Assembly (NCBI GenBank): GCA_903834465.1
Contig: CAILJB010000134.1
Location: 1 to 37,183, forward strand
Direction of reading: 5' to 3'
DNA length: 37,183 nt
Source: an uncultured Pseudomonadota bacterium
Lineage (GTDB): Bacteria > Pseudomonadota > Gammaproteobacteria > Methylococcales > Methylomonadaceae
Positions 9,157 to 37,044 of the stretch are shown here, in pieces (the first letter of the stretch is position 1; each line of letters opens with the position of its first letter). The notes beneath the pieces are model-generated. The model saw nothing but the letters and a program-made list of their open reading frames with translations, made no database searches and had not been told where the DNA came from. Made by a program: the position numbers and the translations under genes.

Positions 9157-10479
9157 GTGAGTGTATCAAGAGCGCAAATGGCAAGTAAAACGGGCGATTT
9201 TTCAGAATTAAAAGCACGTTTGCTTTTTGTTTTGGGAGCTTTCATTGTTTATCGCGTTGGAGCGCATATTCCGGTTCCCGGAATTGATCCCAAAGCGTTA
9301 GCCGCCATGTTTGAACAACAAAGTGGCTCCATCCTTGACATGTTTAATATGTTTTCGGGTGGTGCGTTAATGCGATTGAGTTTGTTTGCGCTGGGTATTA
9401 TGCCTTACATCTCCGCCTCTATTATTATGCAGTTAATGACGGTTGTTATTCCGTCAATGGAACAAATAAAGAAAGAAGGTGAGCTGGGACGACGTAAAAT
9501 TTCCCAGTTTACTCGCTATGGTACTGTCGTTTTAGCGACATTTCAGGCGATTGGTATTTCTTTAGCATTACAAAATCAAACAGCAGGTGGTTTATCTGTT
9601 GTATTGAGTCCTGGTTTTAGCTTTATTGCGATTACTACGATTACATTGGTCACAGGTACTATTTTCTTAATGTGGTTAGGCGAACAGGTGACTGAACGTG
9701 GCATTGGAAATGGTATTTCGATGATTATCTTTGCCGGTATTGTTTCTGGTTTGCCTAAAGCAATTGGTAGCACGTTTGAACTTGTCCGAACTGGTGAAAT
9801 GAGTAGTGCATTTATTGTATTGCTATTTTTGATTTCGATTTCTGTGACCATGCTCGTAGTGTTTGTCGAGCGCGGGCAACGTCGTATTTTGATTAACTAT
9901 CCTAAAAGACAGCAGGGACGTAAGCTCTATGCGGGTCAGAGTAGCTTTTTACCACTTAAGTTGAATATGGCAGGCGTTATTCCTCCCATCTTCGCGTCAA
10001 GTATCATTCTTTTTCCAGCAACAATTGCTGGATGGTTTGGTAAAAGTGAAGGATTTGGATGGTTACAAGATATTGCAACCTTGCTTTCGCCAGGTCAGCC
10101 GGTTTATGTTATCTTTTACGCACTGGCAATTGTTTTCTTCTGCTTCTTTTATACCGCTTTGGTGTTTAATTCTAAAGAAACAGCGGATAACCTGAAAAAA
10201 TCTGGGGCTTTTTTACCTGGTATTCGACCAGGCGCACAAACAAGTGTTTATATTGATAAAGTTATGACGCGATTGACCTTAATTGGCGCATTTTATATCA
10301 CGCTTGTTTGTTTGTTACCCGAATTTTTAATTGTTTATTGGAATGTTCCCTTTTATTTTGGTGGAACATCATTGTTAATTATTGTTGTTGTCGTGATGGA
10401 TTTTATTTCACAAATGCAAACGCATGTTATGTCGCAACAGTATGAAGGTTTAATGAAGAAGGCTAACCTTAAAAAGTAA
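9157..10479 (+). CDS. secY: Protein translocase subunit SecY
   Basis: SecY is the channel subunit of the SecYEG translocon in the inner membrane. The 440 residues (E. coli 443) contain about ten hydrophobic segments. Motifs include the plug-region [31 protein letters not shown] and the cytosolic loops [17 protein letters not shown] and FLPGIRPG. The start used is GTG at 9157, directly abutting the rplO stop. An ATG seven codons in (9178) would also give a plausible N-terminus, and the sequence does not decide between them. Confidence 0.97.
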
Positions 10480-10522
10480 TGGTTAGCACGTTTATTGATA
10501 TTTAAGGGTCTTGGAGATTCCT

Positions 10523-10636
10523 ATGAAAGTTCGCGCTTCTGTGAAACCAATTTGCAGAAAATGCAAAATTGTAAAAAGAAATGGTGTTGTGAGAGTTATT
10601 TGTGAAGATGGCAGACACAAACAACGCCAAGGGTAA
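10523..10636 (+). CDS. rpmJ: 50S ribosomal protein L36 (zinc-binding type)
   Basis: L36 (bL36) is the smallest large-subunit protein. The 37 codons begin [20 protein letters not shown] and end RHKQRQG. Cys11, Cys14, Cys27 and His33 form the zinc site, so this is the zinc-dependent form. It lies 43 bases after secY, preceded by TTGGAGATTCCT as ribosome-binding site. It closes the spc set; the next gene is rpsM, behind a promoter. Confidence 0.97.
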
Positions 10637-10642
10637 TTTTAA

Positions 10643-10670
10643 TTGCTCAATCATTGCAATATGTTATAAT
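10643..10670 (+). promoter_or_regulatory. Candidate promoter of the alpha (rpsM-rplQ) set
   Basis: TTGCTC at 10643-10648 and a perfect TATAAT at 10665-10670 are 16 bases apart, in the 76-base gap between rpmJ and rpsM. This is the only strong -10 box I see inside the ribosomal block. It would start transcription about 35-40 bases before rpsM. The -35 box matches consensus at only three positions. Confidence 0.6.
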
Positions 10671-10693
10671 CATATGCTTAACCTTAGAATCCG

Positions 10694-10707
10694 TACTCAG
10701 GGGAGTA
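10694..10707 (+). promoter_or_regulatory. Hairpin over the rpsM ribosome-binding site
   Basis: TACTC at 10694-10698 pairs with GAGTA at 10703-10707 around an AGGG loop. The AGGGGAG Shine-Dalgarno at 10699-10705 is held in this loop and stem, 7 bases before the rpsM ATG. In E. coli the alpha-operon leader is controlled by S4 binding at the rpsM start. This hairpin could be part of a similar but shorter control element; that role is inferred. Confidence 0.4.
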
Positions 10708-10712
10708 TTTAA

Positions 10713-11069
10713 ATGGCACGTATCGCCGGGATAAATGTACCAGACCACAAACATGCTGTTATCGCGTTGACTGCGATTTATGGTATCGGTCGTCAAACTG
10801 CAAGTGAAATTTGTAGCGAAGTAGGTGTGTTGCCTTCGGTAAAAATCAAAGATCTGGCTGAAGATAAATTAGAAGCTATTCGTAGCGTTATTGCAAAAAT
10901 GACGGTTGAAGGCGATCTTCGTCGTGAAGTTTCTATGAATATCAAACGTTTGATGGATCTTGGTTGTTATCGCGGAATAAGACACCGTAGAGGTTTACCA
11001 TTGAGAGGGCAACGCACTAGAACGAACGCGCGTACTCGCAAAGGACCTCGTAAACCAATTAAAAAATAA
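10713..11069 (+). CDS. rpsM: 30S ribosomal protein S13
   Basis: S13 (uS13) is in the head of the 30S subunit and contacts P-site tRNA and L5. It has 118 residues, as in E. coli. The [20 protein letters not shown] start and the C-terminal [24 protein letters not shown] tail are diagnostic. It is the first gene of the alpha set and has its own candidate promoter. A hairpin covers its ribosome-binding site. Confidence 0.98.
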
Positions 11070-11081
11070 GAGTCTGAACTA

Positions 11082-11468
11082 ATGGCTAGTCAAAATCGTT
11101 CAAGAAAACGTATTAAAAAAGAAGTTGCCGATGGTATCGCGCACGTCCATGCGTCGTTCAATAACACCATCGTCACCATTACCGATAGAAAAGGTAATGC
11201 ACTTTCTTGGGCCACTTCAGGTGGTTCAGGATTTCGCGGATCACGAAAAAGTACACCTTTTGCCGCACAGGTTGCCGCTGAAAAAGCGGGCGCAGTTGCA
11301 CAAGAATATGGCATGAAAAATCTTGATGTGTTAATTAAAGGTCCTGGACCTGGTCGTGAGTCTGCCGTGCGTTCTTTAAACAACTTGGGCTTTAAAATTA
11401 ACAATATTATTGATGTGACGCCAATTCCGCATAACGGTTGCCGTCCCCCTAAAAAACGCCGCGTGTAG
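11082..11468 (+). CDS. rpsK: 30S ribosomal protein S11
   Basis: S11 (uS11) lies on the platform of the 30S subunit near the E site. It has 128 residues (E. coli 129). Typical segments are [59 protein letters not shown] and the terminal [12 protein letters not shown]. It follows rpsM by 12 bases. The upstream sequence has no strong Shine-Dalgarno, which may mean coupling to rpsM. Confidence 0.98.
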
Positions 11469-11486
11469 AGAAACTGGAGTACTAAC

Positions 11487-12107
11487 ATGGCAAGATATCT
11501 AGGACCTACCTGTAAGTTAAGCCGCAGAGAAGGCACCGATTTATTTTTGAAAAGCAGAGGGAAATCTCTGGAAAACAAATGTAAATTGGATCAAAGACCA
11601 GGTCAACACGGCACGAAACGAGCTAGAAATTCGGATTACGCAACACAGTTGCGTGCAAAACAACGCTTGCGTCGAATTTATGGCGTGCTGGAAAAACAAT
11701 TTAGAAATTACTATAAATCAGCTGATATGAAAAAAGGCGCGACAGGTGAGAATCTGTTGAATCTTTTAGAATCAAGACTCGATAACGTAGTGTATCGCAT
11801 GGGTTTTGCAAGCACTCGTGCTGAAGCACGTCAACTTGTTTCTCACAAATCGATTCAAGTAAATGGTTCGCTTATCAACGTACCGTCTTATCAGGTTTCA
11901 CCTGGTGATGTGTTGACGATCAGAGAAAAAGCTAAAAAACAACAACGCATTATTGATGCGTTAGCCGTGACTGAACAATACGGTTTCCCGTCTTGGGTGT
12001 CAGTTAATTCTAAAGAGATGTCTGGGACTTTTACCAGTTTGCCTGATAGAGTTGATTTAGGTACTGACATCAATGAACAACTTGTTGTGGAACTTTACTC
12101 TAAATAA
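11487..12107 (+). CDS. rpsD: 30S ribosomal protein S4
   Basis: S4 (uS4) nucleates 30S assembly, affects decoding accuracy and in E. coli represses the alpha operon. It has 206 residues, as in E. coli. The S4 RNA-binding domain covers about residues 94-157, with [24 protein letters not shown] and the VNG turn. [23 protein letters not shown] is the family N-terminus. rpsD lies within the set it would regulate. Confidence 0.98.
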
Positions 12108-27452: not shown

Positions 27453-28400
27453 ATGGAACAACTCACCGATTTAAAAGCAATTCTTCACTCCAAACGCGCC
27501 AACATTTTTTATTTAGAAAAATGTCGTGTGAATGTCAAAGACGGTCGAGTGGTTTATTTGACCGAAGCGAAAAATGAGAAACAATACTGGAATATTCCCA
27601 TTGCAAATACGACCGTTATTTTACTGGGAATGGGAGCGTCGATTACACAAGCCGCCGTCCGAATGTTAGCATCCGCAGGGGTTCTCATCGGTTTTAGCGG
27701 AAGTGGTGGCACGCCGTTAATTGCGGCAACCGAAGTGGAATGGCTTTCGCCACAAAATGAATATCGTCCAACCGAATATTTGCAAGGTTGGATGTCTTTT
27801 TGGTTTGAAGAAGCAAAACGTCTAAACGTTGCCAAACAATTTCAACGTCTCCGTTTAGCCTACATTCGGCAAGTTTGGTCTAAAGATAGAGATTTACAAA
27901 ACGACGGTTTTTATATCGACGATATGGAAACTGAACGAGCAATGAATCGTTTTGCAAAAGACATCGAACTTAGTGAAAACGTCACAAAATTGATGACGGC
28001 TGAAGCCGTATTTACCAAACATCTCTACAAAATCGCAGCCAGTCACACAAAACTAATCGGTTTTGTGCGTAATCGAGACGGCGACGATGATGCAAACAAA
28101 TTTCTAAATCACGGTAATTATTTGGCGTATGGTTTAGGTGCAACGACGCTTTGGGTTTTGGGAATTCCACACGGTTTTGCAGTCATGCACGGAAAAACAC
28201 GACGTGGCGCATTGGTTTTTGATGTTGCCGATTTGATTAAAGATGCGATTGTTTTGCCGCAAGCGTTTATTTGCGCGAAAGAAGAAATGAAAGAACAAGA
28301 TTTTCGACAACAAGTTTTGCAAATGTTCACAAAACATAAAGCCTTGGATTTTATGTTTGATACCGTTAAAAAAATCAGTCGTGAAGGTGGTGCAATATGA
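27453..28400 (+). CDS. cas1: CRISPR-associated endonuclease Cas1, subtype I-F
   Basis: Cas1 is the integrase that inserts new spacers, with the Cas2 part of Cas2-3 as partner. The 315 residues are of the I-F type, starting MEQLTDLKAILHSKRANIFYLEKCRV. Likely metal-binding residues are Glu184 (TAEAVFTKHLY), His246 (AVMHGKT), and Asp257 and Asp260 (FDVADLIKD). Their spacing is like that of Pseudomonas I-F Cas1. The stop overlaps the cas2-3 start (ATGATG). The gene looks intact, so spacer acquisition may still be possible. Confidence 0.96.
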   Translation: MEQLTDLKAILHSKRANIFYLEKCRVNVKDGRVVYLTEAKNEKQYWNIPIANTTVILLGMGASITQAAVRMLASAGVLIGFSGSGGTPLIAATEVEWLSPQNEYRPTEYLQGWMSFWFEEAKRLNVAKQFQRLRLAYIRQVWSKDRDLQNDGFYIDDMETERAMNRFAKDIELSENVTKLMTAEAVFTKHLYKIAASHTKLIGFVRNRDGDDDANKFLNHGNYLAYGLGATTLWVLGIPHGFAVMHGKTRRGALVFDVADLIKDAIVLPQAFICAKEEMKEQDFRQQVLQMFTKHKALDFMFDTVKKISREGGAI

Positions 28401-31400
28401 TGGTCACGTTTGTGTCGCAATGCGAAAAAAATGCGCTAAATACAACACGTCGAGTGCTGGATAGTTTTGCGAATCGAATCGGCACAAATGTTTGGCAAAC
28501 CATTATTACTGACGAAGGTTTGCAAGTGGTTAAAAAATTATTGCGTAAAACGGCAACAAAAAATACGGCGGTTTCATGTCATTGGATGAGCGGTCGAACG
28601 CATAGTGAATTAGTTTGGATTGTTGGAAATCGCACTAAATTCAACGAACAAGGATTTGTTCCTGTAAATATAACGCACAGTGAAACTATCGATGACGCAT
28701 ACAAATATAATTGGAATTATTTGCCGCTGATTAAATGTTTAACGGCATTGGCGGCGTTATTTCATGATTGGGGCAAAGCCTCGGCGTGTTTTCAAAAAAA
28801 ATTAAAAAAGCCCAATTCAAAAATCAGTGACCCACTTCGCCATGAGTGGGTTTCTTGTTTATTGCTCCATGCGTTTGTGAATGGTGAAGAGGATTCACAA
28901 TGGTTAGCGCGTTTAGCCACGGGCGAAATTAACGAAAATCAATTTAAAAATTTATCTGAAATAAAAAAGCCACTGGATGAATTACCGCCGATTGCGAGTT
29001 TCGTCGTATGGTTAATTTTATCGCATCATCATTTGTCGTCATTAAAAAAAGAGAACAAACAACGACTACAAAAAGAAAAAGGTAAAACACTTAAAAATTT
29101 CAATACGCTTTTTCAAATGATTACGGCAGAGTTCGGTTATCAAAATGCTGGTGACATTGAAGAATGTTTAAATTTTCCAGATGGTTTGCCAAATCAATCG
29201 CCGCAGTGGCTTGAACAAGCGAAAAGATGGGCTGAAGAAACACAAACCAATGAAGCCTTAGCAAAATTTTCGCTTGAAAATGGCACATGGCGATTGATAT
29301 TGCATCATGCTCGACTAGCGTTGATGCTGGGTGATTATTCTTTTTCTTCAACAGAAAAGGTGAATGAGAAATGGCAAACGAAATATAAACCGATAGCAAA
29401 TACCTATAAAAAAACAGGTCAAACTAAACCAGAACCGAAACAAAAACTCGATGAACATTTAGTTGGTGTAACAAGAAATGCTTTGAAAGCTGCACGAATT
29501 CTGCCTTTTTTTGAAGAAAAATTGGAATATGCAAAAGATGTTCGTCGCCTCAAACGAAAAAGCCAAGATGGTTTTGAATGGCAAGATACCGCCGTTGCGA
29601 AACTAAAAGCGTGGCGCGAAACCGAAGCAACGCAAAATTTACAGCATTACGGTTTTTTTGCCGTGAACATGGCAAGTACAGGCTGTGGTAAAACGTTTGC
29701 GAATGCCAAAGTCATGCGAGCGTTATCACCTGATGCGGAGACTTTGCGGTATGTTTTGGCGTTAGGTTTACGAGCTTTGACGTTGCAAACAGGTGATGAA
29801 TATCGTCATCGAATCGGTTTGGATAGTTCGGAATTGGCGGTTTTAATCGGTTCAAATGCCATTATGGATTTGCATCACTTCAATAATGTACAACAAGCGC
29901 GTGACGACGATTCTGATAATCCAAACGGTTCTAATTCTGAGGACGCATTGTTAGAAAGTGAAATTGATTACGATGTCATTCCGACAGAAGGTTTCGTCAC
30001 AATTCTTAAACAAGAACGCGATAGACAATTTTTGTACGCACCTGTTTTGGCTTGCACGATTGACCATTTGATGGGCGCAACAGAAACAAAACGTGGCGGA
30101 AAATATATTTTGCCATCGCTGCGTTTAATGTCGTCAGATTTGGTTATTGATGAAATTGATGATTTTAATGGCAGCGATTTAGTGGCAATTGGTCGGCTGA
30201 TTCATTTGGCGGGAATGTTGGGACGAAAAGTGATGATTTCCTCGGCAACTATTCCACCTGATTTAGCCGAAGGCTATTTCAATGCGTATCAAGCGGGTTG
30301 GCAGATTTTCGCTACGTTTCGAGAAATCAAAAAAACAGTGGGTTGTGCGTGGATTGATGAATTTACCACGCACACCGAATCCATCATTGCCAAAGACGGT
30401 TGTTATCACGAATTTCAAAAACATCACGCCAAATTTATTACCAAACGTGTTCAAGAACTCACCAAAAAACGACCTCAACGAATCGGCGAAATTATCTCGC
30501 TCGACAATCTCAAAGCCTCAACCGATACCGACGAAAATAAGCAAAACGGCTATTTTGAAATTATCGCCCAATCGATTGTGCAACAGCATTTACGACATTT
30601 TGAAATCGACACGCTAACACAAAAACAAGTGTCGTTCGGTGTGGTGCGAATCGCAAACATTTCGCCGTGTGTCGAATTAACAAGATATTTGCTGCAACGT
30701 GAATGGCAAGATGATGTTGACGTGAGAATCATGGCATATCACAGTCAACAAATTTTGCTCATGCGTCATGAACAAGAAAAACATCTCGATGCAGTTTTGA
30801 AACGCGATAGCAAAAATCCTCACGCTATTTTTGAAAATCCCATTATTCGTAAACACTTAACAGAAAGTTCAGCTCAAAACGTTATTTTTATTGTTGTCGC
30901 AACGCCTGTTGAAGAAGTCGGACGTGATCATGATTTCGATTTTGCGATTGTTGAACCATCGTCTTATCGTTCGATTATTCAAATTGCGGGACGTGTGTTG
31001 CGTCATCGATTTGAAAAATTTCCCACAACACCGAACATTGGATTGCTGCAATACAATTTGAAAGGTTTATTCAGTTCAAAAGATGACGATCTTGTTTTTC
31101 ACAGACCTGGTTATGAATCAGAACATCATCGTTTAGATTCGCACGATTTAAAACAGCTCATTGATGAATCGGGCATTACGTATTCGATTAACGCAATTCC
31201 TCGTATTCAATGTGGCGTTAGTCTTGAACCGGAAACCAGTTTGATTGATTTAGAACATCACGTTACCCGCGAATTATTAACCGCTTACGACAAGAAAGGG
31301 GCTGAGAATTTGGAGGGCTGGTTAAGTTCTTGTTGGTTTTTAACGGCGTTGCCGCAAGCGTTTAATGAATTTCGTAAAGGTGAAGAGCAGGTTAAGTTAT

Positions 31401-31696
31401 ATCTCGTTCTTGATAATGAAGAATGGAAGTTTTCCGAAAAAGACAACAAAAGAAAATCCATTGATAGAGAAGCCATTTATCGTATTAAACGTGCTGATGA
31501 TTTAACCGAAACTGAACGAAATCGTTTATGGTTACATCGAGATTATGAAGAATTGATTGAAACGTTAGCATTGAAAAAAGCAATGACAACGCGAGATGCA
31601 GCGTTGCAGTACGGTGAAATTAGTTTGCCTGTTCGCGAGAATGGTTTTGTGTATTTTGAACAATTCGGAATGATTACAAAAAAACAGACAGAATAA
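28397..31696 (+). CDS. cas3: Cas2-3 fusion nuclease-helicase, subtype I-F
   Basis: In type I-F the Cas2 and Cas3 proteins are fused. The 1099-residue product has a Cas2-like N-terminus (MVTFVSQCEKNALNTTRRVLDSFANRIG) at about 1-95. The HD nuclease follows, with ALFHDWGKAS around His123-Asp124. The SF2 helicase has Walker A STGCGKT at about 427-433, DEID at about 585-588, SSATI, and motif VI QIAGRVLRHR. It degrades targets recruited by the Csy complex and assists Cas1 in adaptation. The start overlaps the cas1 stop; either of two adjacent ATGs can serve. An intrinsic terminator overlaps its stop, so it is a separate unit from csy1-csy4. Confidence 0.96.
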   Translation: MMVTFVSQCEKNALNTTRRVLDSFANRIGTNVWQTIITDEGLQVVKKLLRKTATKNTAVSCHWMSGRTHSELVWIVGNRTKFNEQGFVPVNITHSETIDDAYKYNWNYLPLIKCLTALAALFHDWGKASACFQKKLKKPNSKISDPLRHEWVSCLLLHAFVNGEEDSQWLARLATGEINENQFKNLSEIKKPLDELPPIASFVVWLILSHHHLSSLKKENKQRLQKEKGKTLKNFNTLFQMITAEFGYQNAGDIEECLNFPDGLPNQSPQWLEQAKRWAEETQTNEALAKFSLENGTWRLILHHARLALMLGDYSFSSTEKVNEKWQTKYKPIANTYKKTGQTKPEPKQKLDEHLVGVTRNALKAARILPFFEEKLEYAKDVRRLKRKSQDGFEWQDTAVAKLKAWRETEATQNLQHYGFFAVNMASTGCGKTFANAKVMRALSPDAETLRYVLALGLRALTLQTGDEYRHRIGLDSSELAVLIGSNAIMDLHHFNNVQQARDDDSDNPNGSNSEDALLESEIDYDVIPTEGFVTILKQERDRQFLYAPVLACTIDHLMGATETKRGGKYILPSLRLMSSDLVIDEIDDFNGSDLVAIGRLIHLAGMLGRKVMISSATIPPDLAEGYFNAYQAGWQIFATFREIKKTVGCAWIDEFTTHTESIIAKDGCYHEFQKHHAKFITKRVQELTKKRPQRIGEIISLDNLKASTDTDENKQNGYFEIIAQSIVQQHLRHFEIDTLTQKQVSFGVVRIANISPCVELTRYLLQREWQDDVDVRIMAYHSQQILLMRHEQEKHLDAVLKRDSKNPHAIFENPIIRKHLTESSAQNVIFIVVATPVEEVGRDHDFDFAIVEPSSYRSIIQIAGRVLRHRFEKFPTTPNIGLLQYNLKGLFSSKDDDLVFHRPGYESEHHRLDSHDLKQLIDESGITYSINAIPRIQCGVSLEPETSLIDLEHHVTRELLTAYDKKGAENLEGWLSSCWFLTALPQAFNEFRKGEEQVKLYLVLDNEEWKFSEKDNKRKSIDREAIYRIKRADDLTETERNRLWLHRDYEELIETLALKKAMTTRDAALQYGEISLPVRENGFVYFEQFGMITKKQTE

Positions 31697-31709
31697 CGGT
31701 CTGTTTTTT
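31679..31709. terminator. Bidirectional terminator at the end of cas3
   Basis: AAAAAACAGAC at 31679-31689 pairs with GTCTGTTTTTT at 31699-31709, an 11-bp stem around nine bases that include the cas3 stop. On the plus strand the stem ends in six T. On the minus strand it ends in seven T. It can therefore terminate both cas3 and any leftward RNA from the cas3-csy1 gap. Confidence 0.85.
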
Positions 31710-31712
31710 GTT

Positions 31713-31742
31713 TTTCTAAAAGCTGCCTATTCGGCAGAGAAC
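31713..31742 (-). repeat. Degenerate reverse-oriented CRISPR repeat (downstream copy)
   Basis: On the minus strand this reads GTTCTCTGCCGAATAGGCAG followed by CTTTTAGAAA. It equals the array repeat except for one substitution in the first six bases and two extra T in the 3' part. The stem CTGCC-GAATA-GGCAG is perfect. The GTTCTC beginning is shared with the second repeat of the array at 35755. The changed part is the section that Csy4 cleavage would remove. Confidence 0.88.
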
Positions 31743-31775
31743 AACTTAATACAAATGAGTTAATACATTTCTAAG
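31723..31775 (-). ncRNA. Predicted crRNA-like regulatory RNA (CreR type), processed form
   Basis: If transcribed leftward and cut by Csy4 at the normal sites, the two degenerate repeats would release a 53-nt RNA. It would carry an exact 5' handle CUUAGAAA (31775-31768), a 25-nt guide (31767-31743) and an exact 3' hairpin ending GGCAG (31723). A normal crRNA here would be 60 nt. The guide matches the csy1 promoter region at 16 of its first 17 positions next to a CC. Leftward transcription would end at the terminator at 31709-31679. The promoter is not identifiable in the AT-rich upstream DNA. Sequence supports the structure; expression and function are inferred. Confidence 0.72.
31743..31767 (-). 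other. Pseudo-spacer matching the csy1 promoter
   Basis: The 25 bases between the two degenerate repeats begin, on the minus strand, TGTATTAACTCATTTGT. The same strand upstream of csy1 (31868-31852) reads TGTATTAACTTATTTGT. The first ten bases are identical and only position 11 differs within 17. Over all 25 positions 21 match; the others that differ are 18, 21 and 23. Array spacers are 31-33 bases, so this one is clearly shorter. Confidence 0.85.
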
Positions 31776-31795
31776 CTACTTATTCAGCAGTTTTA
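31768..31795 (-). repeat. Degenerate reverse-oriented CRISPR repeat (upstream copy)
   Basis: On the minus strand it reads TAAAACTGCTGAATAAGTAG then CTTAGAAA. About eight of 28 bases differ from the array repeat. The last ten bases, including the whole 5' handle CTTAGAAA, are unchanged. The altered stem still pairs as CUGCU with AGUAG, using one G-U pair, around the same GAAUA loop. So it may still be a Csy4 substrate despite the divergence. Confidence 0.78.
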
Positions 31796-31843
31796 TAATT
31801 TTACTTTAAAACAAAATTTTATATTTAAAAATTGAGTTTTAAA

Positions 31844-31870
31844 AATTAAAAACAAATAAGTTAATACAGG
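31844..31870 (-). promoter_or_regulatory. Predicted target of the crRNA-like guide, with CC PAM
   Basis: On the minus strand the site reads CC (31870-31869) followed by TGTATTAACTTATTTGT (31868-31852). CC is the known type I-F PAM and is in the correct 5' position. The site ends where the csy1 promoter begins, about 22 bases upstream of the -10 box. Binding of the Csy complex here would be expected to block RNA polymerase. The site is also upstream of the predicted leftward RNA and could affect its expression too. Confidence 0.7.
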
Positions 31871-31898
31871 TTTATTTTTATTTTAATCGGTTTATACT
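31871..31898 (+). promoter_or_regulatory. Candidate csy1-csy4 operon promoter
   Basis: TATACT at 31893-31898 is a good -10 box (five of six). TTTATT at 31871-31876 is a weak -35 at 16 bases spacing. The start point would fall near 31905, about 30 bases before the csy1 ATG. The guide target and its PAM lie immediately upstream, touching the -35 region. The weak -35 leaves some doubt. Confidence 0.55.
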
Positions 31899-31935
31899 CC
31901 CGCAAAATTTCAGTAATTAACTAAAGGCGGCAAAA

Positions 31936-33144
31936 ATGTTAGACGAAGAAGCAATCGTAACGTTTTTATCAGAGCGTAAAAAAATTAAGTTGAAAGGCAT
32001 CAGCAATGAAGAACAAATCAAAAAAATCGAAGACTCTTTTAATCTTGAAAACTGGCTACCCGATGCAGCAAAACGTGCAGGGCAATTATCATTGGTTAGT
32101 CATCCAAGTAAATTTACTCACCCAAGTGCAAAAACGAGTTCTATTATTTTTCAAGGTAAATGTTTTACAGATGGTTTTTTACGTTCAGGCAATGTTGATT
32201 TGGAACTTGATGTTTTTGGCAACGCAGCAGCCATGGATGTTTATAAATTTCTATCACTTGTTTTAAGTGATGGCAAAACGGTTTTAACGCATTTAGAAGA
32301 AAACACCGATTTTATTCAACAGCAATTCAACTTTCCTTCTGTTCCGTTTGAAGAATTACGCGCCAATTTTTTAGCCATCAAACAAGATAAATTTTCAACA
32401 GTTCATACCAGCGGACAAATCAAACAAGTCTATTTTCCTGTCGCTGACGATTATCACCTGCTTTCTGTTTTAACACCGTCTGGATTGATGTTTAAGTTAA
32501 AAGAACGCCTCCACGCGATTCGACCAACGAAAGAAATTAGAGAAGCTGAAAAAAACAACCTATTCGATGAACACGGTTTTGATGAATTGCGTGATTTAAC
32601 GATTATTGGATTTGGTGGCACAAAACCCCAAAACATCAGCGTTCTAAACAGTAAAAATTACGGCGAAGCGTATTTATTACTCAGTGTTCCGCCTTCACTC
32701 AAACCCCGCGACATTCAACCGCCTACTTCCGATTTTTTCAAAAACAGCATTTATCCAAAATTGTATAAAGCGAGTTTTAACAGGTTTAATTATTTGGTTA
32801 ATCCTGAATTTAAATATGTGAAAAACAACATCGACAACCGTGATGAACGTGACGAAATTATTTGCGCGGTCATCGATGATGTCATTGTGCGTGCATGGGC
32901 ATTTCGACAACTTAATGTAAGTTGGTCAGACAAAACGAATCTGCCACATTATCAAAAAGTTTGGCTCGATAACGCATTCATCGAAGAGCGCGAAAACAGT
33001 GATGAATGGTCAGAGAAAATTGTTGATGAATTGGCGCGTTGGTTTATTAGTAGCTATGAAAAATTACACAATCAAAAATTGGCAAGTGAAGATTTAACAC
33101 GCATCAAATCAACCATTGAAGAAAACAGGGACAACTTGCTATGA
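31936..33144 (+). CDS. csy1: Csy1 (Cas8f), type I-F surveillance complex large subunit
   Basis: Csy1 recognises the PAM and, with Csy2, holds the crRNA 5' handle. The 402 residues (Pseudomonas about 434) contain the family stretches SHPSKFTHPSAKTSSII, GKCFTDGFLRSGNVDLELDVFGNAAAMDVYKFL, DDYHLLSVLTPSGLMF and LTIIGFGGTKPQNISVLNSKNYGEAYLLLSVPPSL. AGGCGG lies 8 bases before the ATG. It starts a four-gene effector operon with its own promoter and overlaps csy2 by four bases (ATGA). Confidence 0.95.
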   Translation: MLDEEAIVTFLSERKKIKLKGISNEEQIKKIEDSFNLENWLPDAAKRAGQLSLVSHPSKFTHPSAKTSSIIFQGKCFTDGFLRSGNVDLELDVFGNAAAMDVYKFLSLVLSDGKTVLTHLEENTDFIQQQFNFPSVPFEELRANFLAIKQDKFSTVHTSGQIKQVYFPVADDYHLLSVLTPSGLMFKLKERLHAIRPTKEIREAEKNNLFDEHGFDELRDLTIIGFGGTKPQNISVLNSKNYGEAYLLLSVPPSLKPRDIQPPTSDFFKNSIYPKLYKASFNRFNYLVNPEFKYVKNNIDNRDERDEIICAVIDDVIVRAWAFRQLNVSWSDKTNLPHYQKVWLDNAFIEERENSDEWSEKIVDELARWFISSYEKLHNQKLASEDLTRIKSTIEENRDNLL

Positions 33145-34046
33145 GTGATTTAAGAACCATTTTGTTAATTCCGCATTTAAAAATTCAAAATGCCAACGCG
33201 CTTTCAAGTCCTTACACCATCGGTTTTCCAGCGATGACCGCATGGCTCGGCGCAGTTCATGCGCTACAACGAAAACTCAATCAAGCAGGTTTTGAAAATC
33301 TAAAATTTAAAAGCGTCGGGGTCGCGTGCCACGATTTGAATCTGCAAACACACAAAGGTCGCGGTGATTATGTGCATTCAATTATCAGCACAGGCAATCC
33401 GCTTGATAAAGACGGTTCGCGTCCCGCTTTTATTGAAGAAGCACGTTGTCATTTGGATGTTTCGTTAATTGTTGAATGTGAAAATTTACCTTGCGATGAA
33501 TCTGAATTTTTACACGCTTTGCCAACGCATTTGCATCGATTAAAAATTGCGGGCGGCGATATTTTGGATTTTTCAGAAGTGGATATATTCAAAATTGATG
33601 ATGAAGCCACACGTCGCGCTTTGATGCGAAATTTAATGCCCAGTTATGTGATTATTGAGCGACGCGAATTGATGATTGAAGCACATCCCCCCCAGCCCCC
33701 CTTCGAAGGGGGGAGAAAAATCGATGCAATTGATATGTTGCTGGATTATTTGACGGTTAAGCATCGAAGCATTCAAACAGAATCGGGCGGCGAATGGTCG
33801 CAAAAACGTAAGACTTCGGGTTGGATTGTGCCAATTGCCACAGGTTTTCAGGGTATCAGTGCGTTGGGCAAAGCCGAAAATCAACGTGATTTAACTACAC
33901 CTCATCGTTTTGCCGAAAGTGTTGTGACACTGGGTGAATTTATTATGCCGCATCGCATTAAAACATTAGACCGAATGCTTTGGCAGTATCACGTCGATTT
34001 AGAAAATGATTTGTACCTCTGTAAAAACCTACCTATTTCAAAATAA
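33141..34046 (+). CDS. csy2: Csy2 (Cas5f), type I-F surveillance complex subunit
   Basis: Csy2 pairs with Csy1 at the tail of the complex and binds the crRNA 5' handle. The 301 residues begin with the family motif LLIPHLKIQNANALSSPYTIGFPAMTAWLGAVHAL, and include GWIVPIATGFQGISALG and the C-terminal ESVVTLGEFIMPHRI. A short foreign-looking insertion, HPPQPPFEGG, lies at about residues 182-191, encoded by a palindromic DNA element. It falls between RRELMIEA and IDAIDMLLDYL, probably in a surface loop. The frame is preserved on both sides, so the protein is likely functional. Confidence 0.94.
   Translation: MSDLRTILLIPHLKIQNANALSSPYTIGFPAMTAWLGAVHALQRKLNQAGFENLKFKSVGVACHDLNLQTHKGRGDYVHSIISTGNPLDKDGSRPAFIEEARCHLDVSLIVECENLPCDESEFLHALPTHLHRLKIAGGDILDFSEVDIFKIDDEATRRALMRNLMPSYVIIERRELMIEAHPPQPPFEGGRKIDAIDMLLDYLTVKHRSIQTESGGEWSQKRKTSGWIVPIATGFQGISALGKAENQRDLTTPHRFAESVVTLGEFIMPHRIKTLDRMLWQYHVDLENDLYLCKNLPISK
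33681..33715. repeat. Palindromic element inserted in frame in csy2
   Basis: A perfect 18-bp palindrome CCCCCCTTCGAAGGGGGG lies at 33696-33713, with GCACATCCCCCCCAG before it. It is far more GC-rich than the surrounding gene. In the csy2 frame it encodes AHPPQPPFEGG. Nearly the same sequence occurs in csy4 at 35201-35234. It resembles the palindromic elements that insert into reading frames in Rickettsia, but I cannot assign it to a named family. Confidence 0.85.
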
Positions 34047-34057
34047 GGAAAAATATC

Positions 34058-35074
34058 ATGGCTACGAAAAAAGATGATAAAGCGTCTGTTTTGGCGTTTG
34101 AAAAAAAGTTAGTTCCCTCAGACGGTTATTTGTATGGCACAACGTGGGATGAACGTTATACAAAAGCTGAACCACTCGAATTACGCGAAAAATCTGTGCG
34201 TGGCACGATTTCAAATCGCCAAAAAGGCGGGATTTTAAAAGATGCAGAAATTCAAAAACCTAACTTACAAACCGTTGATAGTTGTTCGTTATCGCCAGAA
34301 CACGATACGCTGAAATTGCATTTTACGTTGAAAGTGTTGAGTGGCGTTGAAACACCTTCGGCATGTAACAACGCGGCGTTTTATGAAAGTTATCAAACTG
34401 CTGTCAGAAACTATATTGAAAACGAAGGTTTTACGGAATTGGCTAAACGTTATGCCATTAACATCGCAAACGGACGTTTTTTGTGGCGCAACCGTGTTGG
34501 CGTTGAACAGCTTGAAGTTCATGTAAAAATATCTAATACAAAAACTGCGTGGACATTTGACGCACTAGACATTGGCATCAGCGATTTCGATTTAACGCAT
34601 CCTGATATTTTAGATTTAGCGACAAAAATCGCTGAGGCATTATCGGGGAAAACAGAATTTTTACTTTTAGAAATTGATGCTTATGCTCAAATTGGTCGCG
34701 CTCAAGATGTTTATCCAAGCGAAGAATTGGTGCTTGATAAAGGCAACAGTAAACCTAAAAAAAGCAAAATTTTGTATCACGTTAAAAATAATGCGGCGTT
34801 ACATTCTCAAAAAATTGGTAATGCACTTCGCACCATCGATACTTGGTATCCCGAATTTGCTGACCGCCGCAACCCAAAACCTATAGCGATTGAACCTTAT
34901 GGCGCGGTGACAAATTTAGGGCAAGCCTTTAGACATCCAAAAGATAAAGTCGATTTTTTTACGTTATTTGATAAATTTGCGCGTGGCGCAACGCTTGACG
35001 ACAAAGATTGTGAACATTATGTCATGGCGGTTTTAGTGCGTGGTGGCGTGTTTGGCGAAAGCGGCAAAGAGTAA
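34058..35074 (+). CDS. csy3: Csy3 (Cas7f), type I-F backbone subunit
   Basis: Csy3 forms the helical backbone along the crRNA spacer, normally in six copies. The 338 residues (Pseudomonas 342) start with ASVLAFEKKLVPSDGYLYGTTW and include CNNAAFYESYQTAVRNYI, ANGRFLWRNRVGVEQLEV, EIDAYAQIGRAQDVYPSEEL and PIAIEPYGAVTNLGQAFRHP. AAGGAAAAATATC provides the ribosome-binding site. It carries no palindromic insertion, unlike its neighbours csy2 and csy4. Confidence 0.96.
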   Translation: MATKKDDKASVLAFEKKLVPSDGYLYGTTWDERYTKAEPLELREKSVRGTISNRQKGGILKDAEIQKPNLQTVDSCSLSPEHDTLKLHFTLKVLSGVETPSACNNAAFYESYQTAVRNYIENEGFTELAKRYAINIANGRFLWRNRVGVEQLEVHVKISNTKTAWTFDALDIGISDFDLTHPDILDLATKIAEALSGKTEFLLLEIDAYAQIGRAQDVYPSEELVLDKGNSKPKKSKILYHVKNNAALHSQKIGNALRTIDTWYPEFADRRNPKPIAIEPYGAVTNLGQAFRHPKDKVDFFTLFDKFARGATLDDKDCEHYVMAVLVRGGVFGESGKE

Positions 35075-35079
35075 TCAAC

Positions 35080-35691
35080 ATGAAATTTTATGTAGAAATC
35101 ACTTTGTCGCCAGACATCGAGGCGAGCATTTCATTCAATTTTCTTTGGCAAAAAGTTTATCAACAATTGCATTTGAAATTTGTTGAAATGAAAGATGAAA
35201 GCACATCCCCCTCGCCCCCCTTCGAAGGGGGGAGTTTGCAACCCATTGGTGTTTCGTTTCCACATTATGATGCGAAGGCAAATACGCTCGGCGATAATAT
35301 TCGTTTGTTTGCTTCCGATTTTGAAATCCTTGAACGTTTTAATGCGAGACAAACGCTTAAAAAATTTATCGATTATGTTCACGTTACAAACATTCGTAAC
35401 GTGCCATCGAATGTGAAATATGGTTGTTTTCAACGCTTGCAACTCAAAACAAGTAATTTACGATTAGCGCGGCGCAAAGCAAAACGTGAAAATATCGATG
35501 TTGAAAGCGTACTTTCTAATTTTCAACGTGTTGAAGAATTAAAAATGCCACCTTTTGTGTGGATTCAAAGTGCGAGCAACGGCGAAAAATTCAAATTGTT
35601 TGTTGTTTATAACGAACTAGCAAACGATAATTGCGCGGCGGGTTTTGGAACGTATGGTTTGAGTGGTGAAAGTACCGTTCCGATTTTTTGA
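35080..35691 (+). CDS. csy4: Csy4 (Cas6f), crRNA-processing endoribonuclease
   Basis: Csy4 binds the repeat hairpin and cuts after its last G, leaving the 8-nt 5' handle. The 203 residues compare with 187 in Pseudomonas; most of the excess is an insertion TSPSPPFEGGSLQ at about 42-54. It lies between the first helix and PIGVSFPHYD. His31 in QQLHLKFVE aligns with the catalytic His29 of the Pseudomonas enzyme. The C-terminus GFGTYGLSGESTVPIF is complete and typical. The stop lies only 3 bases before the first CRISPR repeat, so csy4 and the array are probably transcribed together. Confidence 0.94.
   Translation: MKFYVEITLSPDIEASISFNFLWQKVYQQLHLKFVEMKDESTSPSPPFEGGSLQPIGVSFPHYDAKANTLGDNIRLFASDFEILERFNARQTLKKFIDYVHVTNIRNVPSNVKYGCFQRLQLKTSNLRLARRKAKRENIDVESVLSNFQRVEELKMPPFVWIQSASNGEKFKLFVVYNELANDNCAAGFGTYGLSGESTVPIF
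35201..35234. repeat. Palindromic element inserted in frame in csy4
   Basis: The same 18-bp palindrome CCCCCCTTCGAAGGGGGG lies at 35215-35232, preceded by GCACATCCCCCTCG. It is one base shorter than the csy2 copy in the left arm, so the left part is read in another frame (STSPS instead of AHPPQ), while the palindrome is read as PPFEGG in both. This shows the frame is kept by selection after insertion rather than by an identical reading of the whole element. Confidence 0.85.
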
Positions 35692-35694
35692 TTT

Positions 35695-37044
35695 ATTTTC
35701 TGCCGAATAGGCAGCTTAGAAAAAAGAAACGGCAGTATTTTTAGTTCTTCAACAGTTCTCTGCCGAATAGGCAGCTTAGAAAACCATCGATAGTAAGTAA
35801 ATCATTACCTACACGTTTTCTGCCGAATAGGCAGCTTAGAAAGAACCGCCTAAAATGGACATATCACCATCACCAGTTTTCTGCCGAATAGGCAGCTTAG
35901 AAAGTGTTGATGCAAAAGAAGTTGAATTTTTAAAGGTTTTCTGCCGAATAGGCAGCTTAGAAAAATCCGATATAAAGCCGACCCCCGAATTTTTAGTTTT
36001 CTGCCGAATAGGCAGCTTAGAAATTTTGATGTTTTTACAGCTTATGACAAGCAACGTTTTCTGCCGAATAGGCAGCTTAGAAATGATGAAATTCCGTTTT
36101 ATTCGGCTGGCGAATGTTTTCTGCCGAATAGGCAGCTTAGAAAGGATCAGCTAATCAAAATTCTTATGTTGACATGTTTTCTGCCGAATAGGCAGCTTAG
36201 AAACGTTCTAATGCTTGCAACACTTGTTGTTTATGTTTTCTGCCGAATAGGCAGCTTAGAAATGGTGGCGGAGGTGCGGACACGATAGATGGTGGTTTTC
36301 TGCCGAATAGGCAGCTTAGAAATACAGTTGATGCAGCAGGCGATATTACTTGTCGTTTTCTGCCGAATAGGCAGCTTAGAAATGTAATGCCTTAGCCAAC
36401 CACATTACGTCTTCGTTTTCTGCCGAATAGGCAGCTTAGAAAATAACCAATTTGCCAAAGCGTTTCATTTTGCGGTTTTCTGCCGAATAGGCAGCTTAGA
36501 AATTTCAAAAAAACAAAGGCGTGGTGTACGAGTGGTTTTCTGCCGAATAGGCAGCTTAGAAAAAACTGCGACAAAAAAATGGTAAAGCGTAACGGTTTTC
36601 TGCCGAATAGGCAGCTTAGAAAAAACAGAACTGTCGGTCTGGAGATTGGACAAAGTTTTCTGCCGAATAGGCAGCTTAGAAATTATAGCCATGGCAGTTT
36701 TTCAGTTACTCCGGGTTTTCTGCCGAATAGGCAGCTTAGAAATAAAAAAAAGGGCTATAAAAATACAACCCTTTGTTTTCTGCCGAATAGGCAGCTTAGA
36801 AATTTTTAAAGAAAACTTACGAAGGTTCTAGGTCGTTTTCTGCCGAATAGGCAGCTTAGAAAACTTGTAGAGCCACTGGAAGTGCTACCACTTGGTTTTC
36901 TGCCGAATAGGCAGCTTAGAAACATCATCGCCTTCGCCATAAGTGCCTTCGCAGTGTTTTCTGCCGAATAGGCAGCTTAGAAATCGCTTGGTAATCAAGT
37001 GGGGCTTTTTTATGTCGTTTTCTGCCGAATAGGCAGCTTAGAAA
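35695..37044 (+). CRISPR. Type I-F CRISPR array, 23 repeats and 22 spacers
   Basis: The 28-base repeat is GTTTTCTGCCGAATAGGCAG followed by CTTAGAAA, with the stem CTGCC/GGCAG. Spacers are 32 bases except three of 33 (35843, 36923, 36984) and one of 31 (36204). Repeats start at 35695, 35755, 35815, 35876, 35936 and so on to 37017. The first repeat begins with A instead of G, the second reads GTTCTC, and the others I checked are identical. By analogy with Pseudomonas I-F, the plus strand is the crRNA strand, so the 5' end is next to csy4. No leader separates it from csy4. By eye I found no spacer matching elsewhere in the window. Confidence 0.98.

Follow-up and report, generated by a model that had tools for sequence, protein, structure and literature searches.

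The window, by which we mean the whole stretch of 37,183 nucleotides that was analysed (contig C134 within a 2.82-Mb assembly), carries a complete type I-F1 CRISPR-Cas system consisting of cas1f, cas3f, csy1 to csy4 and a matching array. All six genes exceeded their NCBIfam cut-offs. The genes and the features that accompany them are as follows.

27453-28400, plus strand: cas1f (NCBIfam TIGR03637, E 1.2e-141)
28397-31696, plus strand: cas3f (NCBIfam TIGR02562, E 5.9e-292), overlapping cas1f by 4 nt
31679-31709, no strand assigned: A/T-flanked hairpin over the cas3 stop, by its fold resembling a terminator on either strand
31923-31930, plus strand: csy1 ribosome-binding site, AAAGGCGG
31936-33144, plus strand: csy1 (cas8f; TIGR02564, E 3.3e-58), first gene of the presumed regulated operon
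33141-34046, plus strand: csy2 (cas5f; TIGR02565)
34058-35074, plus strand: csy3 (cas7f; TIGR02566)
35080-35691, plus strand: csy4 (cas6f; TIGR02563), whose product would process the mini-array RNA
35695-37044, plus strand (the strand of csy1-4): CRISPR array of 23 repeats

The cas3f and csy1 genes are separated by a gap of 239 nt. The hairpin over the cas3 stop gave fold z-scores of -3.7 on the plus strand and -4.6 on the minus strand, with 0 of 200 shuffles folding equally well; a consensus terminator scan did not flag it. Judging from its fold and position, it could terminate both the cas1-cas3 transcript and a leftward transcript from the gap. At the other end of the operon, the array holds 22 spacers of 31-33 nt and starts (35695) only 3 nt past the csy4 stop (35691) on the same strand, which leaves no room for a leader; a very similar csy4-array junction is seen in the relative L018. 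Because the array begins so close to csy4 and without a leader, a single csy1 promoter could drive both the effector and the crRNAs, and the main-array crRNAs may be supplied by read-through from that promoter.

Spacer 1 (35723-35754) matched the system's own csy4 (35560-35529) at 25 of 32 positions with a CC PAM; the best of 300 shuffles reached 23, and the other 21 spacers reached at most 21 against the cas genes. Read in frame, the spacer gives VEELKILPFL and csy4 gives VEELKMPPFV, as if the spacer had been acquired from the csy4 of another I-F system. A search of 237 family genomes at up to 3 mismatches returned the array itself only. The 20-base core of the spacer occurred in 8 viral contigs, but the full spacer matched there at just 22-23 of 32 positions, and the csy4 of L018 was no closer to it (20/32). 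We also observed a C-rich/G-rich near-repeat (D4) around CCCCCCTTCGAAGGGGG in csy2 (33667-33712) and csy4 (35187-35232), the two copies being 72% alike and both translating as ...PPFEGG....

Between cas3f and csy1 lies a two-repeat mini-array on the minus strand (31795-31715), as the initial annotation had described in reporting two degenerate reverse repeats around a 25-base pseudo-spacer. Its parts, in the order in which they would be transcribed, are listed below.

31798-31803, minus strand: predicted mini-array promoter -10 (TAAAAT), 13 nt ahead of the psiR1 stem
31768-31795, minus strand: psiR1, the upstream repeat, TAAAACTGCTGAATAAGTAGCTTAGAAA, identified by sequence and fold
31743-31767, minus strand: guide (pseudo-spacer) of 25 nt, TGTATTAACTCATTTGTATTAAGTT
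31715-31742, minus strand: psiR2, the downstream repeat, with a 20-nt hairpin part (31742-31723) and a degenerate tail
31723-31775, minus strand: predicted mature crRNA-like RNA of 53 nt (8 handle, 25 guide, 20 hairpin), placed by the expected Csy4 cut position

The upstream repeat, psiR1, agrees with the local repeat at 21 of 28 positions (two-consensus score), retains its 5-bp stem (31790-31776) with one wobble pair and keeps the 8-nt 5' handle CTTAGAAA exactly (31775-31768). The first 20 nt of psiR2 (GTTCTCTGCCGAATAGGCAG) differ from the array repeat at a single base, a change that is also present in the array's own repeat at 35755. Cutting by Csy4 after each repeat stem would yield the 53-nt RNA (31775-31723) proposed in the initial annotation, and psiR1 and psiR2 each retain exactly the half that would enter the mature RNA. 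With a 21/28 repeat and a guide of 25 nt, as against spacers of 31-33 nt, the element is not an ordinary CRISPR array. Its repeats are cognate to the local CRISPR, degenerate and ectopic, with stems and handle retained, which is a trait of CreR, the mini-CRISPR guide RNAs of cas autorepression considered below.

Guide match at the predicted csy1 promoter

We then compared the guide with the rest of the gap, where the following features lie immediately upstream of csy1.

31852-31868, minus strand: guide target, 16/17 matched
31869-31870, minus strand: PAM, 5'-CC
31871-31876, plus strand: predicted csy1 -35 (TTTATT, weak, 3/6 to consensus), directly beside the PAM
31893-31898, plus strand: predicted csy1 -10 (TATACT, good), 22 nt past the PAM

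The initial annotation had proposed that the guide matches 31868-31852 at 16 of its first 17 bases with the first ten perfect, that a CC PAM precedes the match on the same strand, and that the match adjoins the csy1 promoter. Each of these points held: the sole mismatch falls at position 11, away from the sixth-base positions, the PAM occupies 31870-31869, and it sits beside the predicted csy1 -35 with the -10 beyond. Past position 17, 5 of the 8 remaining guide bases match the target side. CC is the type I-F PAM according to passages of PMC7305327. The guide is thereby partly complementary to a predicted cas promoter next to a proper PAM (16/17, CC), a second trait of CreR. Of the 65 nt from PAM to csy1 start, most is promoter, leader and ribosome-binding site; the gap (31697-31935) holds no mini-ORF of at least 7 codons on the plus strand, and three short TTG-started ORFs on the minus strand.

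Chance similarity between guide and target was rejected on the basis of shuffles and of the comparison across loci presented below. Among 20,000 shuffles of the 17-nt guide, searched in the same region with CC required, the best score was 14 (4 shuffles), with no 15 or 16. A search of the window for PAM plus guide at up to 3 mismatches found only the target and the guide itself, against an expectation of 0.02. A relaxed pattern (up to 2 mismatches) had 3 matches in the 2.82-Mb assembly, namely the target (0 mismatches), a site on contig C112 (1) and the guide itself (2). No viral contig held an exact copy of handle plus guide with one base left open. A consensus promoter scan did not list the csy1 promoter in the window, and on the minus strand it returned one promoter-like match at 31843-31816, which differs from the mini-array -10 at 31803-31798.

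Co-change and mismatch periodicity among relatives

In order to follow the element in related genomes, we searched for Csy1 protein in 18 genomes of the genus, 237 of the family, 311 of the order and 369 of the class (overlapping sets), with matches in 9, 62, 71 and 31 genomes, respectively; a scan of genome contigs gave 4 loci, one of them seemingly G004. The locus set was compiled with 16 match rows of the order search and 1 of the class search (mostly distant or fragmentary) and locus L017 set aside. In it csy1 was placed in 93 loci, of which 80 had at least 60 nt that could be scanned by our first detection rule. The loci are not one per genome (L010 and L018, and likewise L069 and L090, are apparently the same DNA under two ids), and csy1 starts and cas3 ends were estimated, the distance of 129 nt in L068 probably being an artefact of a start placed too far downstream.

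By the first rule, 44 of the 80 loci had a candidate mini-array, which left 41 distinct candidates once identical guides were dropped. In 35 of these 41 a CC-flanked target matched the guide at 12 or more of 17 positions, and in 35 the best site of any kind was the CC site on the expected strand. When the guides were tried in the gaps of other loci, scores of at least 12 arose in 71 of 1640 trials, partly from mutually similar guides; the mean pairwise agreement of the 41 guides was 6.5/17. The first rule misplaced the guide start where the psiR1 loop was short, and six of the 41 candidates were target-less under it. Anchoring on the handle gave three of them (L054, L071 and L080) targets of 15-16/17, and the remaining three (L022, L063 and L065) had no target even with handle anchoring.

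A strict rule returned a psiR1 candidate in 36 of the 93 loci, 31 with a target and 5 without, and yielded 28 unique guides. It drops several loci found by the first rule (e.g. L032, L036, L041, L049 and L064), all of which are among the 37 distinct guide/target pairs obtained from csy1-upstream gaps within the same order and class. All 28 strict pairs, which were preselected for scores of at least 12, scored 13-17. In the corresponding controls, reversed guides reached at most 12, the wrong strand gave at most 10, and swapped guides reached 13 or more in 26 of 756 trials.

We asked, as the initial annotation had proposed, whether guide and promoter change together in relatives. Among the element-bearing loci they do (L012; 37 distinct pairs). 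In L012, the closest relative with the element (Csy1 66% identical), guide and target are altered jointly at positions 7, 8 and 10. Over 148 guide pairs that were at least 9/17 alike, with positions 6 and 12 omitted, guide and target had changed jointly with pairing kept in 643 position comparisons versus 222 one-sided changes; these comparisons are not independent, many of them reflecting kinship among loci. The pairing thus appears to be kept by selection, a further trait of CreR.

The placement of the target was also conserved. Along the plus strand, target, GG, -35, -10 and csy1 start follow one another in this order. A -35-like hexamer stood at offset 0 past the PAM in 12 of the 28 strict elements (at most 5/28 at the other offsets from 1 to 59), and a csy1 -10-like hexamer at offset 23 in 15 and at offset 22, as in the window, in 3 (elsewhere at most 5/28). 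Similarly, 15 of 28 had a mini-array -10-like hexamer 13 nt ahead of the psiR1 stem, with other offsets from 6 to 59 giving at most 5/28. Because these positions are conserved in relatives, both the csy1 promoter and the mini-array promoter are supported. The target was 62-75 nt from the csy1 start codon in 18 of 28 elements and 185-301 nt away in 7 (L019, L020, L069, L072, L080, L082 and L093). Several of the latter have a promoter-like stretch behind the PAM, and by eye structured-looking sequence or small ORFs follow (one of about 60 codons in L082; in L072 a short one behind AGGAGG). From their layout, these far-target loci are candidates for CreT- or CreP-like parts.

Presence of the element varied with the estimated cas3-csy1 gap. 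For gaps of 101-600 nt it was counted in 27 of 36 loci, for longer or unknown gaps in 13 of 30, and for gaps of 100 nt or less, which barely have room for it, in 0 of 27; L054, which regained a target by handle anchoring, is among the 9 loci with mid-size gaps that were scored as lacking the element. Of the nine same-genus genomes with a csy1 match, two have the element (G000 and G014), six do not (G004, G006, G008, G011, G013 and G016), and the fragment G015 stood outside the comparison. The closest relative (L018, apparently from G004; same genus, 86% Csy1 identity) has no psiR1 candidate in the 720 nt before csy1, and this is a loss of the element, not compensation. In this locus (about 9720-11840) the csy1-4/array block is inverted with respect to cas3, and the real array now ends with psiR2 as its final repeat, which has stayed next to the cas3 terminator; it looks as if the reversed mini-array and the array had recombined to produce an inversion. 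In a different locus, L021, two forward repeat-like copies occupy the cas3-csy1 gap, with no reverse match.

The mismatches within the 28 strict pairs were distributed unevenly along the guide. From position 1 to 25 the counts were 0, 0, 0, 0, 0, 20, 1, 1, 1, 2, 3, 15, 0, 4, 2, 6, 8, 20, 12, 16, 15, 16, 19, 20 and 16, such that positions 6 (20/28), 12 (15/28) and 18 (20/28) were about as free as the unpaired tail and the other positions from 1 to 13 were held. Positions 6 and 12 together were mismatched in 35 of 56 cases, versus 8 of 308 at the others of 1-13 (Fisher p 1.5e-26); restricting the comparison to 19 guides at most 11/17 alike gave 26 of 38 versus 6 of 209 (p 1.7e-20). Tests of the I-F complex, in the passages of PMC7305327 drawn on here, revealed a 5+1 pairing pattern in which mismatches at every sixth position were far less harmful. 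Judged from these alignments, the periodicity is the 5+1 footprint of a type I-F R-loop.

Pairing also faded past about position 17, even in longer guides, as would be expected for binding without cutting. In an I-B system a 24-bp spacer gave no interference or priming and kept repression, the same group having earlier seen very weak priming at 24 bp with another target (passages of PMC10989794). Guide lengths in 27 of the 28 elements were 14-15 (2 elements), 19-21 (10), 24-27 (12), 29, 31 and 32, so that 23 of 27 were no more than one base away from 14, 20, 26 or 32, the lengths reached by going down from 32 in steps of six, where chance would place half. Each Csy3 binds 6 nt according to part of PMC7305327, and the lengths look as if whole Csy3 subunits had been omitted.

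A probable CreR-type guide for the Csy complex and its alternatives

Taken together, we propose, with a probability of about 0.86, that the mini-array is a native CreR-type guide gene of the type I-F1 system, whose RNA would direct the Csy complex to bind without cutting and to repress csy1-4. A leftward promoter just before psiR1 would give a short RNA that Csy4 would cut after both stems, leaving the 53-nt crRNA-like species with its 25-nt guide. Loaded with this RNA, and presumably one Csy3 short of the usual number, a Csy complex would form an R-loop at 31868-31852 that spans about 17 positions and whose PAM end lies on the csy1 -35. Pairing over so short a stretch would not recruit Cas3 for cutting, and therefore the bound complex would only exclude RNA polymerase, lowering csy1-2-3-4 transcription. 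Once other crRNAs or inhibitors occupied or blocked the Csy complexes, repression would ease. It is by analogy with CreR that we propose both this repression and a response to crRNA load or inhibitors.

CreR autorepression is known for types I-B, I-E and V-A in the available text of PMC13131331; CreR itself (Liu et al. 2023, Cell Host Microbe) is cited in portions of PMC13131331, PMC12737573 and PMC12948488, one review extending it to type I and V-A generally. The window resembles CreR, as these excerpts present it, in having a mini-CRISPR within a cas locus, limited complementarity to a cas promoter and, by ORF scan, no toxin gene. It differs from the named types I-B, I-E and V-A in being type I-F, with its function here predicted. 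The initial annotation knew of no description of this instance and overrated its novelty, given these CreR types (PMC13131331) and an I-F CreTA in the same gap (PMC10097628), as both appear in the parts of the sources consulted. Titles and opening lines of abstracts among the matches listed, which did not cover the two key 2023 papers, described no I-F CreR. Many type I systems reportedly have mini-arrays partly matching cas8 promoters (Shmakov et al. 2023, NAR), and one such mini-array, of type I-F1, is said there to act as a regulatory guide. Since csy1 is cas8f, the window locus would belong to these regulatory mini-arrays. Cas9 autoregulation by a natural single guide, with the effector acting on its own promoter (Workman 2021), is reportedly a related case; it differs in having a class 2 effector and a guide said to derive from tracrRNA, the window having a type I-F Csy complex. 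The window locus is therefore a well-supported further example of a kind of guide already described.

The nearest alternative is a CreTA addiction module in which the mini-array serves as CreA, with a guide that would silence not csy1 but a small toxin gene or RNA within the gap. The I-F CreTA of Acinetobacter sp. WCHA45, as set out in passages of PMC10097628, likewise has psiR1 and psiR2 in the cas3-csy1 gap, with psiR1 the more variable, and a CC-flanked partial target; 17 of 20 guide bases are paired there, with mismatches at 6, 11 and 18. However, what that guide silences is a small toxic RNA, separate from csy1, which has a promoter of its own and a conserved mini-ORF of 33 bp, and the transcription start lies upstream of the target (same passages of PMC10097628), whereas in the window the target is just upstream of the csy1 -35 and no toxin ORF fits. 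The 65 nt from PAM to csy1 and the lack of a plus-strand mini-ORF of at least 7 codons in the gap speak against a toxin gene, with a slight probability left for a non-coding toxic RNA, and 18 of 28 strict elements share the 62-75-nt distance. The toxin-antitoxin reading is thus unfit for the window and unlikely overall; it may fit the relatives with targets 185-301 nt from csy1 (7/28), where extra sequence and in places small ORFs intervene.

Slightly less probable still is that a Csy-RNA complex at about -36 to -52 activates csy1 or merely buffers it. Activators often bind at about -36 to -52, and the target is immediately upstream of the -35, a position that leaves some doubt as to how strongly, and even in which direction, csy1 would be affected. 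On the other hand, the complex would lie over the -35 with its PAM side, the known natural cases repress, and we know of no contact between a Csy protein and RNA polymerase. We rejected as very improbable the possibility that guide and target are alike as copies of an operator bound by a protein regulator. Such copies could be seen in TTAATACA, of which the guide contains two and the target one (direct repeat D13), yet in relatives the shared sequence differs and still starts right behind the TTAGAAA handle in the guide and right behind CC at the target, and a protein site would neither keep this guide/PAM frame nor skip every sixth base. A dead remnant of an old array with an accidental likeness to the promoter, to which the degenerate repeats and their capacity to recombine with array repeats (psiR2 of L018 is fused to the real array) might point, is the least credible of all and was rejected in view of the co-change, periodicity and geometry across dozens of loci.

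Returning to the CreR-type guide gene, we advance only tentatively the broader proposal that I-F loci with their own csy1 promoter commonly carry a guide gene for shortened Csy repressors, and that in this locus one loop sets both the effector and the crRNAs. Since guides of this kind are already known, what is gained here is breadth, clean evidence and a simple rule by which more can be found. As far as sequence alone can tell, selection seems to have favoured natural type I-F guides that bind without cutting, and the sixth-base mismatches together with the fading of pairing past position 17 amount to an evolutionary readout of how Csy reads DNA. These observations suggest how a form of immunity that can harm its own host could stay low yet react to inhibitors.
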